Source: Nitrososphaerota archaeon (GTDB taxonomy: Archaea > Thermoproteota > Nitrososphaeria > Nitrososphaerales > Nitrosopumilaceae). From it: 33,142 nucleotides of DNA. Under the pieces are notes generated by a model, which saw only the letters and a list, made by a program, of their open reading frames with translations, had not been told where the DNA came from and ran no database searches. The DNA lies in contig JACRJT010000025.1 in the NCBI GenBank assembly GCA_016215465.1, positions 1 to 33,142 of the forward strand. Direction: 5' to 3'. The stretch's first letter is position 1, and each line of letters begins with the position of its first letter. A program made the translations under genes and the position numbers. Shown here in pieces: positions 8,855 to 32,595 of this stretch.

Positions 8855-10195
8855 TTGAAAACACTCGCACTAATCTTGTCATTGTTGGTTGTAAGCATGG
8901 CAATTGCGCCTGCATTTGCCGTGATTCAGACGTTTCAAACCGACAAGACCTCCTACAAAAAGGGAGACCTGATTACCTTTAGCGGGACAACTGATTCTGC
9001 CCATGCAAATAAAATGGTCTCAATTAAGATTTATGGTCCTGATGGCAAGTTTATCACATTACTTGGCGGTCCCTCTGATTCAGACGGAATAATAAAAATT
9101 AATCCTATAGACACATCCAAGGAAAAATACTACACCAAATTTGCACAAAAGGGAGTTTACAACGCAACTGCATTTTATGACATGGAGCCAAACTACAAAG
9201 GCAAATTCACACTGTTTGATTATTCTGCAGATGGCTCACCTGTCAGCCCGTCTGCTGCTGATCTGATGAAAGGACAATCTTCTACACCCACAACTACCTC
9301 CACGACACCGACAACCTCCACTACAACACCAACTACGCAACCGCCGTTACAGCCGCCAACAACTGAAACGCCGAAGACGGAACAACCAAAAACCGAAGAG
9401 CCAAAAACAGAGTCTCCGCCGGAAGAAAAATCAGTGGAAAAACCAAAAACAGTCATCCCTGGATTTCCAGACCCAACCAAGGACCCGCAGACATATGTTG
9501 ACAGATACAACAACGATTTAGCATTTAAGGAATGGTTTGACAAGTATTTCCCAGGTGAGTCAATCTATGATGTGGTGGGATTGCCTGATCCTGCAAAAAC
9601 GCCGTCCACAGTTCCGGGATTTCCAGACCCAACCAAGGATCCGCAGACATATGTTGACAGATACAACAACGATTTAGCATTTAAGGAATGGTTTGACAAA
9701 TATTTCCCAGGAAAAACAATCTATGAGGTAGTTGGACTACCAGAGCCCCAGCCAATTGTTGGAGTCTGCGGTGAGGGAACAGTTCTTCAAAACGGAGTCT
9801 GTGTAGTTGAGCAAAAAAGCGGAGGCGGATGCCTTGTAGCTACTGCTGCATACGGGACAGAGCTTGCCCCCCAAGTGCAAAATCTGAGGGAGTTGCGTGA
9901 CGGTGTGTTGCTTAGGACTGATTCCGGCTCTGCGTTTATGAGCGGGTTTAACGCATTTTATTATTCATTTAGCCCCACAATAGCTGACTGGGAAAGGCAA
10001 AGCCCGTTGTTCAAGGAAACAACAAAGACTGTACTGACGCCACTACTCTCATCACTAACCATACTGAATTACGTAAACGTTGATTCGGAGCAGGAACTGC
10101 TCGGGTACGGATCTGGAATAATTCTGCTAAACATTGGAATGTATTTTGTGCTCCCTGCACTTGTGGTACTGCAGATTAGAAAGCGATTTGTGTAA
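8855..10195 (+). CDS. Secreted surface protein with internal tandem repeat and CFI-box C-terminal domain
   Basis: 446 residues. Order: signal peptide (1-22, ending AFA), an Ig-like beta domain (about 24-130), a long Thr/Pro/Glu linker (about 145-200) likely to be glycosylated, and two 52-residue repeats starting GFPDPTKDPQ (203 and 255). A short CGEGTVLQNGVCV motif then leads to the CFI-box domain. The box GGGCLVATAAYGTE (Cys326) is followed by a conserved region of about 120 residues with two hydrophobic stretches, the last one ending in basic RKRFV like a membrane stop. The box resembles domains annotated CFI-box-CTERM; its exact role (anchoring or sorting) is not established to my knowledge. 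The TTG start at 8855 is chosen because it gives the signal peptide directly and no ATG is available upstream. A paralogous C-terminal domain occurs at 26.4-27.9 kb. Confidence 0.9.
   Translation: MKTLALILSLLVVSMAIAPAFAVIQTFQTDKTSYKKGDLITFSGTTDSAHANKMVSIKIYGPDGKFITLLGGPSDSDGIIKINPIDTSKEKYYTKFAQKGVYNATAFYDMEPNYKGKFTLFDYSADGSPVSPSAADLMKGQSSTPTTTSTTPTTSTTTPTTQPPLQPPTTETPKTEQPKTEEPKTESPPEEKSVEKPKTVIPGFPDPTKDPQTYVDRYNNDLAFKEWFDKYFPGESIYDVVGLPDPAKTPSTVPGFPDPTKDPQTYVDRYNNDLAFKEWFDKYFPGKTIYEVVGLPEPQPIVGVCGEGTVLQNGVCVVEQKSGGGCLVATAAYGTELAPQVQNLRELRDGVLLRTDSGSAFMSGFNAFYYSFSPTIADWERQSPLFKETTKTVLTPLLSSLTILNYVNVDSEQELLGYGSGIILLNIGMYFVLPALVVLQIRKRFV
9461..9760 (+). repeat. Tandem duplication (156-bp period) inside the CFI-box surface gene
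   Basis: Copy 1 starts at 9461 and copy 2 at 9617. The first 95 bp or so of each copy differ at only two third-codon positions, while the rest of the unit (about 60 bp) has diverged. The unit encodes GFPDPTKDPQ...AFKEWFDKYFPG plus a variable end. Near-identity with only synonymous changes points to recent duplication or gene conversion. Confidence 0.95.
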
Positions 10196-26425: not shown

Positions 26426-27913
26426 TTGACTAGATCCTATAAGCGAGTTAGATTGGTAATGTCATTACAAACCCTATTTGCAATATTTCTGATTTTTCTA
26501 GTTTTCAATGCCGGCTCTGCCTTTGCACAGACAGACGAGATTCGATACCAAATAATCACGGACGTGAACTGTCAATCCAGAACCACATCTGCCATTGCAG
26601 ACGATGTTGTAGAAGAGTATTTTGCCCTCAGCAAAATAAAACACATCGCCTCGCCATTAGAATGCGGTGCAAGAGATGTCAAAATCGATGAGAATTTGCA
26701 ATCTAATGACCTTATAATTCTCATAATGGAAGATCCAACATTTGTATTGTCTTCCGATGATCTTTCGCTGATAGACAATCATGGAAATACCAAATATTAT
26801 GAAAAAGGCAAAAAGCACATCCTATTTGTCAGATCAAACCCGCTTGATGACCATTCAACCTTTTTTGACCTCAGTCATGCGTTATCGCATTTTGTTTCAA
26901 AGATAAACAACCAGCCGGACTCCATATCAATTGATATGGCAAACAGAATTTTTCATGAGCTGAACAGCTGCAAAAAAGATCTTTATCCATTTTACAACCA
27001 ATTCAAGGACTGCCCGCAAGACATGTACTCTATTTTGCAAATCATGTCCATATCATATGGGGATAACATGTATGTGGCAGAGACTCCACATCCAGAATCA
27101 GCCAAGATCAATAATGATACTGAATCAATTATGCAAACAAGTAGCAATGAATTGGAGAGATATCTGCCAGATGTAAATAATATCAAAATTACAAAAAACA
27201 TGGACGATATCATTGAATTCTCATACGAGTCCGGAATTTCCCATATCGGCGGCAGCATAACAAAATACGAAACCATAGAGCAGGAAAACAGCAATTTTGC
27301 AGCAGCCGTTGTCCTGTCTGACTTGAAAGTTGACTATAACAGGTATGATAAAGTGGACTGCGCAAGCGGAAAAATTCTTTCAAAGAATGTCCTTGTTTGT
27401 AAAAAGGACAGATACCACATCGTGATGAGGACAGATGAAGATATCGACCTAGAGCAGCCAATGGTGCAGATGCTTGGAAAACTAGGCGCAAATCACCGAA
27501 ATACTGGGGCATATGACAAAACCCCAACTATAAGTAAAGGAGGATGCCTGATTGCAACTGCCGCATACGGGACCGAAATGTCCTCGCAGGTGCAGCTGCT
27601 GCGGGAAATAAGGGACAATGTCTTGTTTGGGACCGATTCCGGGACCACATTCATGGTATCATTTGACCAATTTTACTATACATTCAGTCCTGGAGTGGCA
27701 GACTTGGAGAGGCAGAGTCCCATATTCAAGGAAATTGTAAAAATTGCAATCACGCCGATGCTGTCAACTCTGTCAATACTCAACTATGTGAATATTGACT
27801 CTGAATATGAAATGCTAGGGTTTGGAATTGGGATTATCATTCTAAACGCAGGAATTTATCTTGTCATTCCGGCAATAATTATTGTAAAATTAAGGCAAAA
27901 ATTATGCAGGTGA
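26426..27913 (+). CDS. Secreted protein with CFI-box C-terminal domain (second copy)
   Basis: 495 residues from TTG 26426 (ATG at 26459 is the alternative). The signal peptide ends AFA at about 34. The large middle part (35-365) has several Cys (CQSRTT, LECGAR, NSCKKD, KDCPQD, VDCASG, LVCKKD) likely in disulfides; it matches no family I recognise. The CFI-box domain begins KGGCLIATAAYGTE (Cys374). It continues as in the 8855-10195 protein: SFDQFYYTFSPGVADLERQS, LSILNYVNIDSE, and a final hydrophobic segment with basic end LRQKLCR. The two domains are clearly homologous, whereas the N-terminal parts are unrelated. A histidine kinase gene follows 94 bp downstream. Confidence 0.88.
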   Translation: MTRSYKRVRLVMSLQTLFAIFLIFLVFNAGSAFAQTDEIRYQIITDVNCQSRTTSAIADDVVEEYFALSKIKHIASPLECGARDVKIDENLQSNDLIILIMEDPTFVLSSDDLSLIDNHGNTKYYEKGKKHILFVRSNPLDDHSTFFDLSHALSHFVSKINNQPDSISIDMANRIFHELNSCKKDLYPFYNQFKDCPQDMYSILQIMSISYGDNMYVAETPHPESAKINNDTESIMQTSSNELERYLPDVNNIKITKNMDDIIEFSYESGISHIGGSITKYETIEQENSNFAAAVVLSDLKVDYNRYDKVDCASGKILSKNVLVCKKDRYHIVMRTDEDIDLEQPMVQMLGKLGANHRNTGAYDKTPTISKGGCLIATAAYGTEMSSQVQLLREIRDNVLFGTDSGTTFMVSFDQFYYTFSPGVADLERQSPIFKEIVKIAITPMLSTLSILNYVNIDSEYEMLGFGIGIIILNAGIYLVIPAIIIVKLRQKLCR

Positions 27914-29512: not shown

Positions 29513-30151
29513 TCAATTACAAACTCTTGGTAAATATTCAACTTTTGAGATAGAATTCATTTTTTCCAATGCTTTGATAATTGATGAATTCTCATCTGCT
29601 TGAAAAGATCCATGTAATGAGATGAATAAAATATTTTCATCAGAATAAGATATGATAATTGGCTGCCACAATATCAATTCAGAAAATTTCTTTATTTCAT
29701 TTCTCATGATCTTAATAATTGTGGAATTGTTGGGCTTTGTATTATCGTATTTTATTGACCATGCATTTCCACAACTAAAATCTGGTCCATGTGACAACTC
29801 TTTGTTCTTTACTATTCCCCAATACCTGTCCATTAGCTTTTCAGCAGTTTTGGGCTTTACACATGCGACAGTGTTTTCTGACAGTTTTAGAAGAGGAATT
29901 GTTTCATTAAAACAAACTATGTCAAACATTCGTATTCCAACCTCCAGTTGTTTTCTGGGCGAAATTTTTTCATTTATGGCTTGTTCTAGTTTTACTTTAT
30001 ATTTTTGGATCTCTAATTCATCGTATTTCGGTACTGCATTGATCAAGGGCCCAAATTGGATAATTACTGATATACACAATATGATTAGAATTGTGACCAT
30101 ACATCTCATTTTAATAAAAGATAGTTTTTCTTTATTCATCATATTATTCAT
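29513..30151 (-). CDS. Secreted/membrane-anchored protein with a thaumarchaeal Cys motif
   Basis: 212 residues from ATG 30151. An ATG at 30181 lies too close to the TATA-like GTTTATTT (about 30193-30199) to be in the mRNA. Residues about 16-40 form a membrane anchor. Residues about 75-110 read IVCFNETIPLLKLSENTVAC, then VKPKTAEKLMDRYWG. I remember this as a motif repeated in many thaumarchaeal exported proteins (C...K.s...aCVKP.TAekL..RgW), role unknown. Further Cys and a Lys/Asn-rich domain follow. AT content is higher than in the neighbours. Confidence 0.7.
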   Translation of the reverse strand: MNNMMNKEKLSFIKMRCMVTILIILCISVIIQFGPLINAVPKYDELEIQKYKVKLEQAINEKISPRKQLEVGIRMFDIVCFNETIPLLKLSENTVACVKPKTAEKLMDRYWGIVKNKELSHGPDFSCGNAWSIKYDNTKPNNSTIIKIMRNEIKKFSELILWQPIIISYSDENILFISLHGSFQADENSSIIKALEKMNSISKVEYLPRVCN

Positions 30152-30241
30152 ATATTGTACCTGATTTTTAAAATTAAACATTTAGTACTCTGAAATAAAC
30201 AGCAAAAAGATTCTAAGATCTCACAAAAAAAGAGGAGGGGT

Positions 30242-31168
30242 TTAATACCAGCTTCTTCTGGTTTCTAGCGTATCGTCGTGTGCAGGTCTCCAGTTTTTAA
30301 TGAAGTTTGAGCATAACAGATTGTTTGGAGTGAGCATTATGCTTGGTTCGAAGTTACATGAGGAGTCATGATTGAATCCATAGGTATGGGTTATTTCGTG
30401 CATGATTACTCGGGTTAGATCACCTGAAGACGGAGCATCTTGCACAACAATGGCAGGATGAGTGCCTCCACTTCCTGGAACATTTGCGCATCCATCAGCA
30501 TCTGAAATTGATTGCCTAGTAAATGCGATCAGAATGTCAGCACCGTTGTACGTACCGCTATTCCATCCTGATTCAGATCTCACTTCCGGATGCAGATAAT
30601 TTGTTGGATCGGGCGGGTTAGGACCACCACAGCCAAGAGCGTTGTTATTTGAACTCCACGCGTAGAAGTTGGTTGCAGAAATTACTACAAAATCTATTCC
30701 ATGTTCGGTTAAAAACCACGGTTCTGCCATATTCAGTTTGTTAATGGCAGTACTCTGCCAACTGGTTCCATACTGAGTTCTGAACTCTTCATCGGCCGCG
30801 ATTTTGAAAACTACATCTGGAAGAGGGGTCGGTCTGCTAACAAGGTTATGGTTTACACCAGATTGCCCATTACCATTCACATTGCTAACTCTGCCGTGGG
30901 TTGCAGTTGATTTCATGCCATCTACAGAGTATGTTTGGCCATTAGTTACCGTCATAGACCAAGTTCCTCCCGTTCCACTAGTGGTAACTTGATAACCGAT
31001 TGCAGGATCAGTATTCACAGATTCTGCGGTAATCTTGACAGCGCTTGTTCCAACACCGTCTATTTTGGCTGTTCCTGATATAGTACCTGCTTCAGCTGCT
31101 TTGATGTTATCACTCAAAACAACAGATGTAACGATTAACGCAAAGATACAAAGGATTAGTTTTTGCAT
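30242..31168 (-). CDS. Secreted metzincin-like zinc metalloprotease
   Basis: 308 residues from ATG 31168. The start is supported by a GGTGGT upstream and by position 1 bp after the preceding stop; a longer frame to 31204 overlaps that gene. After the signal peptide (about 1-26) comes a beta domain like the carboxypeptidase-regulatory or Big type (ISGTAKIDGVGTSAVKITAE). The catalytic half has HEITHTYGFNH (257-267), the extended zinc motif HExxHxxGxxH, and a downstream PSIMLT that fits the metzincin Met-turn. Several Cys suggest disulfides. It is the second gene of an operon with the anchored protein upstream. Confidence 0.9.
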   Translation of the reverse strand: MQKLILCIFALIVTSVVLSDNIKAAEAGTISGTAKIDGVGTSAVKITAESVNTDPAIGYQVTTSGTGGTWSMTVTNGQTYSVDGMKSTATHGRVSNVNGNGQSGVNHNLVSRPTPLPDVVFKIAADEEFRTQYGTSWQSTAINKLNMAEPWFLTEHGIDFVVISATNFYAWSSNNNALGCGGPNPPDPTNYLHPEVRSESGWNSGTYNGADILIAFTRQSISDADGCANVPGSGGTHPAIVVQDAPSSGDLTRVIMHEITHTYGFNHDSSCNFEPSIMLTPNNLLCSNFIKNWRPAHDDTLETRRSWY

Positions 31169-31169
31169 T

Positions 31170-31868
31170 TTATTTACCACCCGCGGATTCAAAATATGGT
31201 CCAAAGTATCTGATGTCGTATTTTGCTACTTCGCCGTTGTCTTTATCTACATCAAAATTGTGCTTTCCGCCTTTCATCAATTGTTTTAGATCATTCGCAG
31301 TTTCTTCGTCTACTTCGGTCCATCTAAACTCCTCATCAAATACTTTCTTTAGCTTGGGTTTTGATTTCACATCAACTTTCTCAAATGGATCATCGATGTC
31401 AAATAACCTGTATGCTTTAACGTATGATGATGTAGGAGAAGTAACTGGGTTTTCATAGAATTCTATCTGGAAATATTTTGTGATTCCATTCACTTCAAGT
31501 CCAAAATCATAGATTCCGTCTTTTGTGATGTCAAAATACTCTTTCAGATATTTCTCGTCTATCGGCATTTCTCTTTTTTCAATCACCTCTACAATCCAAG
31601 ATTGCTTTACACTATCAATCACATGGTATTTTTCTGGCTGTATTGCCAATGGATATGATACAAGAAACGCCATTCCTTGTCTTGGAAGGTCTCTTGGATG
31701 GATTGCGTTTTTTGGCGATAGTTCTTCGACTGGTCCAGAATCAGCACTCTTTGCGGTGTTGACTGTTGGAGTCAACGCGGTGAATGCAAAAAATCCTGCC
31801 GTGCCAACTACTGCCAAAACAGCTACTGTGCACAAGATGTTTTTTGTACTTAATGTTCTCAATGTCAT
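31170..31868 (-). CDS. Membrane-anchored extracellular protein, operon partner of the metzincin
   Basis: 232 residues. One N-terminal membrane helix (about 10-32), an outer domain that is mixed and Asp/Lys-rich, and a C-terminal GPYFESAGGK. No known catalytic motif. It is the first gene of the operon and has the strongest ribosome site in the window (GGAGGT, 31873-31878, four bases before the ATG), so the mRNA has a leader. It might be the anchor, inhibitor or substrate partner of the protease; that is inference from gene order only. Confidence 0.8.
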   Translation of the reverse strand: MTLRTLSTKNILCTVAVLAVVGTAGFFAFTALTPTVNTAKSADSGPVEELSPKNAIHPRDLPRQGMAFLVSYPLAIQPEKYHVIDSVKQSWIVEVIEKREMPIDEKYLKEYFDITKDGIYDFGLEVNGITKYFQIEFYENPVTSPTSSYVKAYRLFDIDDPFEKVDVKSKPKLKKVFDEEFRWTEVDEETANDLKQLMKGGKHNFDVDKDNGEVAKYDIRYFGPYFESAGGK

Positions 31869-31872
31869 TGTT

Positions 31873-31878
31873 ACCTCC
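31873..31878 (-). promoter_or_regulatory. Shine-Dalgarno of the protease operon
   Basis: GGAGGT on the minus strand, four bases before the ATG at 31868. It implies a leadered mRNA, unlike most genes here. Confidence 0.7.
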
Positions 31879-31915
31879 TACCTTCCCACTAACTAATAAG
31901 GCGAACTTATACCGC

Positions 31916-31936
31916 ATAGCTATTCAAAATAGCTAT
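31916..31936. promoter_or_regulatory. Perfect palindromic operator over the protease-operon start site
   Basis: ATAGCTATT, spacer CAA, AATAGCTAT: 9-bp perfect arms. A minus-strand TATA box CTATTTAAG (about 31951-31960) puts the start of transcription near 31929, inside the palindrome. A bound dimer would block initiation. Confidence 0.6.
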
Positions 31937-31950
31937 TTGGAGTGAGTAAT

Positions 31951-31960
31951 TCTTAAATAG
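31951..31960 (-). promoter_or_regulatory. TATA box of the protease operon
   Basis: CTATTTAAGA on the minus strand, about 26 bp from the inferred start of transcription in the palindrome. The resulting leader is about 60 nt. Confidence 0.5.
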
Positions 31961-32016: not shown

Positions 32017-32361
32017 CTAAATCAAGGCCAACGGTTTGCCTTTTTTGAAATCAATGCGGTCGTAAAGCAGTGATATCTGTCTAAACAATCTCCATCCAGT
32101 TTCGGTTGGATAGTATGATTTGTCGCCTTTATCGTATTGCAGATACCCATCCTTTTCTAGCCAATCCAGATATTTTTTAAGTGAGGGCCAAGTGGTTCTT
32201 GAGAAAAAGTGAATCTGTGTTATTTTTAGATAAGATTTTTCATAAAATGCATTTGCGATACGTACAAGAACCTTTGGATCAGGCTGGAAATTACCATTTA
32301 CGCTAACCACATTATCTGAAAAATGGGATTTTTTTTCTGGCTTTTCCAAAATCGGTAACAT
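32017..32361 (-). CDS. Winged-helix regulator upstream of the protease operon
   Basis: 114 residues: a polar start (1-24), then the helices DPKVLVRIANAF, KITQIHFFSRTTWPSLKKYLDWLEKDGYL (helix-turn-helix) and a wing YDKGDKSYYPTETGWRLF, with a short C-terminal helix. This is an archaeal one-domain winged-helix regulator. It is on the same strand as the protease operon, with the palindromic operator between them, so it is the nearest candidate regulator. A TATA-like TTTATGG lies 20-27 bp before the ATG. Confidence 0.83.
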   Translation of the reverse strand: MLPILEKPEKKSHFSDNVVSVNGNFQPDPKVLVRIANAFYEKSYLKITQIHFFSRTTWPSLKKYLDWLEKDGYLQYDKGDKSYYPTETGWRLFRQISLLYDRIDFKKGKPLALI

Positions 32362-32442: not shown

Positions 32443-32595
32443 TCCGTAAGGTACGAATCTCCTGTAAAATCACTCGTCAGATTAGTACATGCTTTTAAGT
32501 TTTGATTCAATTTGAATTGTACCTATGGTTGACTCTAGATATGGAGTGATCCATAATCCAAAAAAACTTAATTTGTTGCATGTCATAACTGGTAC

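Follow-up and report, generated by a model that had tools for sequence, protein, structure and literature searches.

A palindrome upstream of a secreted-protease operon as putative private operator in a small family of regulator-cargo cassettes

Introduction

Local gene regulation in ammonia-oxidizing archaea is still poorly understood. In the window, i.e., the whole stretch of 33,142 nucleotides from one such archaeon analysed here, a palindrome lies between a gene for a small winged-helix protein and an operon for an anchored protein and a secreted metzincin, and the question raised by this locus is whether the palindrome is a control site, and if so, which protein it serves and with what effect on the operon. 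An earlier note on this DNA had viewed it as the site of dedicated repression, probably by the neighbouring protein, with a TATA box placing the start of transcription inside the palindrome and a ribosome site showing that the mRNA has a leader.

Results

The palindrome and its gene neighbourhood

The palindrome reads exactly as given in the earlier note, and the genes around it, namely the winged-helix gene next upstream and the two ORFs of the anchored-protein/metzincin operon, are likewise as described there (Table 1). On the minus strand, the conserved block at 32500-32445 is followed by the winged-helix gene, the dyad, the core block, the anchored protein and the metzincin. The last of these is reprolysin-like, with a Reprolysin_5 match above cut-off and, within the ORF, the HExxHxxGxxH motif, which we take to be that of metzincins.

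Table 1. Features of the cassette in the window (coordinates within the window; a dot marks features without strand)
Feature	Position	Strand	Basis or remark
Locus-specific dyad, putative operator	31916..31936	.	ATAGCTATT-CAA-AATAGCTAT, perfect 9+3+9
Wider imperfect inverted repeat (43 bp) around the perfect dyad	31905..31947	.	20-nt arms, 75% complementary
Conserved core block, model R1, six loci	31856..31906	-	GTTCGCCTTATTA-N8-GAAGGTAGGAG...ATGAC
TATA-like box, favoured core promoter	31893..31900	-	CTTATTAG, position conserved in cassettes; first base 32 nt before ATG
TTTAAG, TATA box of the earlier note	31952..31957	-	would set the start inside the dyad
TATAAG, third TATA-like box	31906..31911	-	window locus; lacking at this position in the five further loci
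AGGAGGT, Shine-Dalgarno-like	31873..31879	-	AGGA alone common to the six loci
Small winged-helix protein, 114 aa, putative regulator at the dyad	32017..32361	-	HTH_45 23.0 bits; paralogs; low-confidence model
First cargo gene, 232-aa protein, N-terminal signal/anchor stretch	31170..31868	-	ORF; no Pfam family
Second cargo gene, secreted metzincin	30242..31204	-	Reprolysin_5 40.5 bits (cut-off 27); HEITHTYGFNH
Conserved block 5' of the winged-helix gene	32445..32500	-	ACTTAAAAG ... CGTACCTTACG (CGTA-N3-TACG)

The window palindrome, which can alternatively be resolved into two ATAGCTAT octamers with a centre-to-centre distance of 13 bp, is real and improbable by chance. As the best dyad in the 68-nt promoter stretch, it scores 9 points (p = 0.007, 3000 dinucleotide shuffles), a score reached by 31 of 2000 shuffles when the wider 113-nt gap is considered, and none of 88 control promoters from the same genome has a dyad of at least 9 points (90 were taken, two of which were removed as cassette promoters). 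At up to three mismatches, the dyad is matched once in the window (mean in shuffles, 0.01) and at one place in the whole genome to which the window belongs (G000, 1.7 Mb), and a regulon built on this one palindrome was rejected. In relatives, matches with two or three mismatches are about as frequent as those to the reversed control pattern; viral contigs hold no match to the dyad, and scans of genome contigs, a set from which the window's own genome may be absent, gave no match.

The earlier note had also suggested a search for the palindrome at other metzincin operons. The operon is rare: in a search of 61 genomes, matches to either of its two proteins, the anchored one and the metzincin, were confined to the window's own genome and a distant relative (G053), and the metzincin operon of the latter, the only related one found, adjoins neither a winged-helix gene nor such a palindrome. 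Since sister cassettes, moreover, carry other secreted proteins, a particular link with metzincins was discarded as looking incidental. Elsewhere in the window, two secreted proteins (8855-10195 and 26426-27913) have in common a C-terminal region (GGCL/IATAAYGTE...LRE-RD...) that ends in a hydrophobic stretch and may be a domain for sorting or anchoring at the cell surface, and secreted proteins near several cassettes show, by eye, a common short motif (SP-L-Q-GI...C...ACV....L type) (window 29513-30181; L050 8859-9572; L055 2781-6201).

A repeated cassette design

The window palindrome belongs to a small family of regulator-cargo cassettes, of which six loci were recognised, four in the window's own genome (C11, i.e., the window locus, C14, C17 and C5) and two in a genome of the same genus (G005a and G005b in G005). 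The order in common comprises (i) a conserved upstream block, (ii) a small winged-helix gene, (iii) a stretch with a locus-specific dyad, (iv) a core-promoter block, and (v) a signal-peptide gene starting with ATGAC. The winged-helix gene is directly 5' of the cargo at all six loci, with a broken frame in G005, and the C14, C17 and C5 regulators directly precede genes with signal-peptide-like N-termini. Alignment of the pre-cargo sequences gives the core block as GTTCGCCTTATTA-N8-GAAGGTAGGA-...-AATGAC (CTTATTA...GAAGGTAGGA); among 400 genomes of the order, its model (R1) matches the four and the two loci above at E<=1e-4 and no locus in the other 398 genomes at that threshold. The second conserved block (CGTA-N3-TACG) lies 5' of the regulator gene at 6/6 loci, and the stretch between the two conserved parts varies from locus to locus. 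A similarity between the upstream and core blocks was considered and dropped (p from 0.01 to 0.86 over the six loci). Viral contigs hold no match to the core pattern and no relative of the window regulator, and none of their 17 matches to the upstream pattern fits the core model. Searches of open papers listed no description of this cassette family. The window site is a genuine candidate for a control site.

Strong dyads, i.e., reaching 9 points, occur at four of the six loci, namely C11, C5 (17+3+17, one mismatch; p =.0003), G005b (12+1+12, one mismatch; p =.0037) and G005a (28+1+28, five mismatches; p =.0023). C17 and C14 each present two adjacent 13-bp dyads (p =.066 and p =.30, respectively), poorer in C14, which are weak and not above controls, their scores being equalled by 17/88 and 39/88 control promoters. 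Fisher's combined p is 7.6e-8 for the six loci and 1.5e-6 without the window and C17. By eye, the dyads of C14 and C17 differ at 4 of 26 positions, three of which are among the six spacer positions; the corresponding regulators are 89% identical. Between regulator and cargo, C14 further holds a perfect 11+5+11 dyad (GATAGAACAAT...ATTGTTCTATC, L044 about 1862-1893), stronger and farther upstream than its cassette dyad and absent from C17.

Related arrangements occur in two further genomes, G008 and G010, where the 10 winged-helix genes examined are all of C5 type. Most are accompanied by a CTTAC...GTAAG-like site located 5 nt upstream of a CTTAATAG-type box; after the site comes GCGYGKCTTAATAG, with the ATG of the next gene about 25-27 nt farther on, and these downstream genes include secreted proteins (e.g., Ice_binding, 187.9 bits). 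A perfect 16-bp palindrome without spacer is present at G008d and G010d, the other sites being imperfect; C5 (TGTAAGCGCGCCTTATATG) and G008d (TGTAAGCGCGTCTTAATAG) have the right arm and the box in common. The dyads of G008a, G008c, G010c and G010e are not above control promoters by dyad score, no dyad was found at G010a, and no cargo box was found downstream at G008b and G010b. In both genomes, similar winged-helix genes and ice-binding-like cargo form clusters (L107 2900-8300 in G008; L109 in G010), with TTGTC-type repeats farther upstream of the CTTAC/GTAAG site and, in G008, one broken cargo copy.

The regulators and their sites

The window protein falls short of the HTH_45 family (PF14947), scoring 23.0 bits for a curated cut-off of 25.5, which is passed by its paralogs in C5 (30.0 bits) and G006 (28.7) and missed by those in C14 (21.7), C17 (18.1) and G005a (14.4). 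A single-sequence structure model of low confidence (mean pLDDT 63.9) suggests the H-H-H-E-E-long H order of elements of a winged helix-turn-helix (wHTH). Paralogs are found in the same genome on contigs C14, C17 and C5, and the regulator profile has matches in 7 of 17 congeneric genomes (E<=1e-5), those of G010 C19, G016 and G007 being left out of the cassette analysis. Both winged-helix frames of G005 look shifted (L060 5880-6186 and 9953-10240), one near an A run, in cassettes with intact dyads and core blocks, which may reflect sequencing error, decay or slippage; the frames were taken as they stand, unmended.

Across loci, operator similarity tracks regulator similarity, with a Mantel r of 0.81 (p = 0.0026) for 8 loci and of 0.88 (p = 0.0002) for 12, a correlation confounded by the shared ancestry of whole cassettes, which accounts for part of it, and by the cluster of G008 paralogs. 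For the same 8 loci, the TATA-to-ATG stretch gives an r of 0.07 with the regulators. Omitted from the test were G008b and G010b, which have no cargo box, G010a, and also G005b, whose regulator frame is broken. Together with the paralogs found at the same place at three further loci of the own genome and two of G005, most of these sister loci having a dyad of their own, this correlation supports the earlier proposal of a site dedicated to the neighbouring winged-helix protein.

Core promoter and start site

To define a promoter norm, positions of words were counted upstream of 90 genes from about 0.2 Mb of the own genome. The frequency of TATA-like words is highest 21-30 nt upstream of the start codon (8 and 14 matches in the two 5-nt bins, against about 3.4 per bin farther upstream), and Shine-Dalgarno (SD)-like words are rare, with 10 matches within 20 nt of the start; expectation maximisation on the 90 promoters yielded no usable TATA motif. 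For Nitrososphaeria, a share of 11% of mRNAs with a functional SD has been given (PMC10783764). The conserved CTTATTAG box is favoured because it matches the leaderless spacing that is the norm in this genome, and a leaderless or nearly leaderless mRNA from this box seems most likely; the start site is not fixed, since two other TATA-like boxes and AGGAGGT also precede the ATG.

The window dyad is 15 nt upstream of the CTTATTAG box. Archaeal activators are described as binding upstream of BRE/TATA, and repressors as binding on it or farther downstream (PMC4158304, PMC5512572). If CTTATTAG is the TATA box, the dyad would therefore occupy the usual place of an activator site; if TTTAAG is, it would cover the start, hence repression. 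On these grounds, activation appears slightly likelier. Much of the earlier account of this promoter is thus qualified: the TTTAAG box exists, AGGAGGT is present at 31879-31873 and the site looks dedicated, but neither a start inside the palindrome, nor a leader, nor repression is established, as CTTATTAG fits the genome norm better, leaderless spacing is that norm, and the dyad would be upstream of BRE/TATA with CTTATTAG in use.

Discussion

The reading considered probable is that the window palindrome serves a regulator-cargo cassette as its private operator, bound by the adjacent winged-helix protein. The 32017-32361 protein, probably as a dimer, would bind the 21-bp dyad, perhaps the wider 43-bp repeat, and control the promoter of the adjacent secreted-protein operon (31868-30242), with CTTATTAG at 31900-31893 as putative core promoter and an mRNA leaderless or nearly so. 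The sister cassettes would follow the same order of parts with diverged regulators and mostly differently spelled dyads, so that each regulator would address its own cargo. Regulator binding, the dimer, the start site and the sign of control are what we infer from sequence comparison.

It is possible, if on the unlikely side, that the dyad is instead a repressor operator over the start: with TTTAAG as TATA box, transcription would begin inside the dyad, near 31928, RNA polymerase would be blocked by the winged-helix protein bound there, and the mRNA would have a 60-nt leader with an SD site. TTTAAG-like boxes, chosen by eye, are indeed present 27-39 nt before the dyad centre at 6/6 loci and the AGGAGGT of the window is well placed, but these boxes are less conserved than CTTATTA, leaderless spacing is usual in the genome, and nothing SD-like lies between box and ATG at the G008/G010 sites. 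Were the cargo read from the regulator promoter or another upstream start, the dyads could also be mRNA hairpins setting stability or translation, which we hold unlikely. The dyad would remain untranscribed with CTTATTAG as TATA box, and the perfect 16-bp palindrome of G008d and G010d leaves no spacer. Predicted folding is better than in shuffles for C5 (z -3.6), G005b (-3.4) and G005a (-2.2), but no better for the window (-0.66), C14 (-0.06) and C17 (-0.76); three G.U pairs and no other mismatch in the arms of G005b hint at a hairpin, although the 10 mismatches in the arms overall, about 5 G.U and 2 A.C by eye, are not decisive.

Binding of the dyad by a different factor, common to the cell, in place of the adjacent protein seems decidedly unlikely. 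Such a factor may exist, given the common CGTA-N3-TACG block upstream of 6/6 regulator genes, but a single factor would not explain dyads that differ between loci, nor one that, as in the window, occurs at a single place in the genome. We regard it as very improbable that the dyad marks the cargo boundary as a site of recombination or attachment, or that it is a functionless repeat arisen by chance. C14 does have a tyrosine recombinase adjoining a tRNA-Leu (Phage_integrase, E 1e-31), and the sequences of C14 and C17 change directly after the cargo start codon; the dyads, however, recur beside the promoter box and not at element ends, and a search of the C14 stretch gave no second copy of the tRNA-Leu end.

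Among known systems, the TrmB-type archaeal wHTH proteins resemble the private-operator reading in combining a winged-helix dimer, here a putative one, with a short odd-centred dyad (TACT-N3-AGTA), the position of which relative to BRE/TATA decides between activation and repression; they differ by their effector-binding domain, the cassette regulators being bare winged helices of about 92-114 aa, and in that each cassette copy spells its own site (PMC4158304). Stf76 (pSSVx), F93, Sso10a and AspA are of the same size and fold class, some in a mobile-element setting, but Stf76 is reported to bind its own promoter, unlike the cassette reading (PMC4027180), and AspA to be a centromere-binding protein, unlike the cassette regulators; with the low-confidence model, matches to such small archaeal wHTH structures are weak, AF_1382 giving the best profile E (0.0029). 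EarA of Methanococcus maripaludis has, like the cassettes, repeated sites immediately upstream of BRE, but the account cited presents a chromosomal activator of the archaellum operon and no cassette set with private sites (PMC5512572). The closest described element is NitUzo-E2, a thaumarchaeal cryptic integrated element with an integrase, a wHTH and two hypothetical proteins, comparable to the recombinase, wHTH and secreted cargo of C14; it differs in that the part of the account cited here includes neither operators nor secreted cargo, and the window cassette has no adjoining recombinase (PMC6563490).

With no recombinase ORF nearby, the window cassette does not class as a cryptic integrated element; beside it, the contig end (32758-33141) holds the first part of a transposase-like ORF, with a weak DDE_Tnp_1_5 match under the cut-off. 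In G005, 14 nt of the tRNA-Val end recur 8.9 kb away (L060 628 and 9517) around cassette G005a, and a 517-aa ORF looks recombinase-like by eye, without Pfam support. In the immunity groups of lambdoid phages, related elements carry private repressor-operator pairs; the cassettes have the same layout and differ in their target, a secreted-protein operon. It is a tentative and rather doubtful extension that they form a mobile family of this kind, with core and upstream blocks shared and regulator-operator pairs private. If true, several cassettes could coexist in a cell without cross-talk and be switched on singly, by which the cell would vary what it secretes or displays at its surface.

The paralogous cassettes of this genome amount to a natural experiment, in which shared and private parts can be read by comparison. 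The two candidate start sites lead to opposite predictions, i.e., activator or repressor, and from the paired sequences of regulators and operators, recognition could be decoded.
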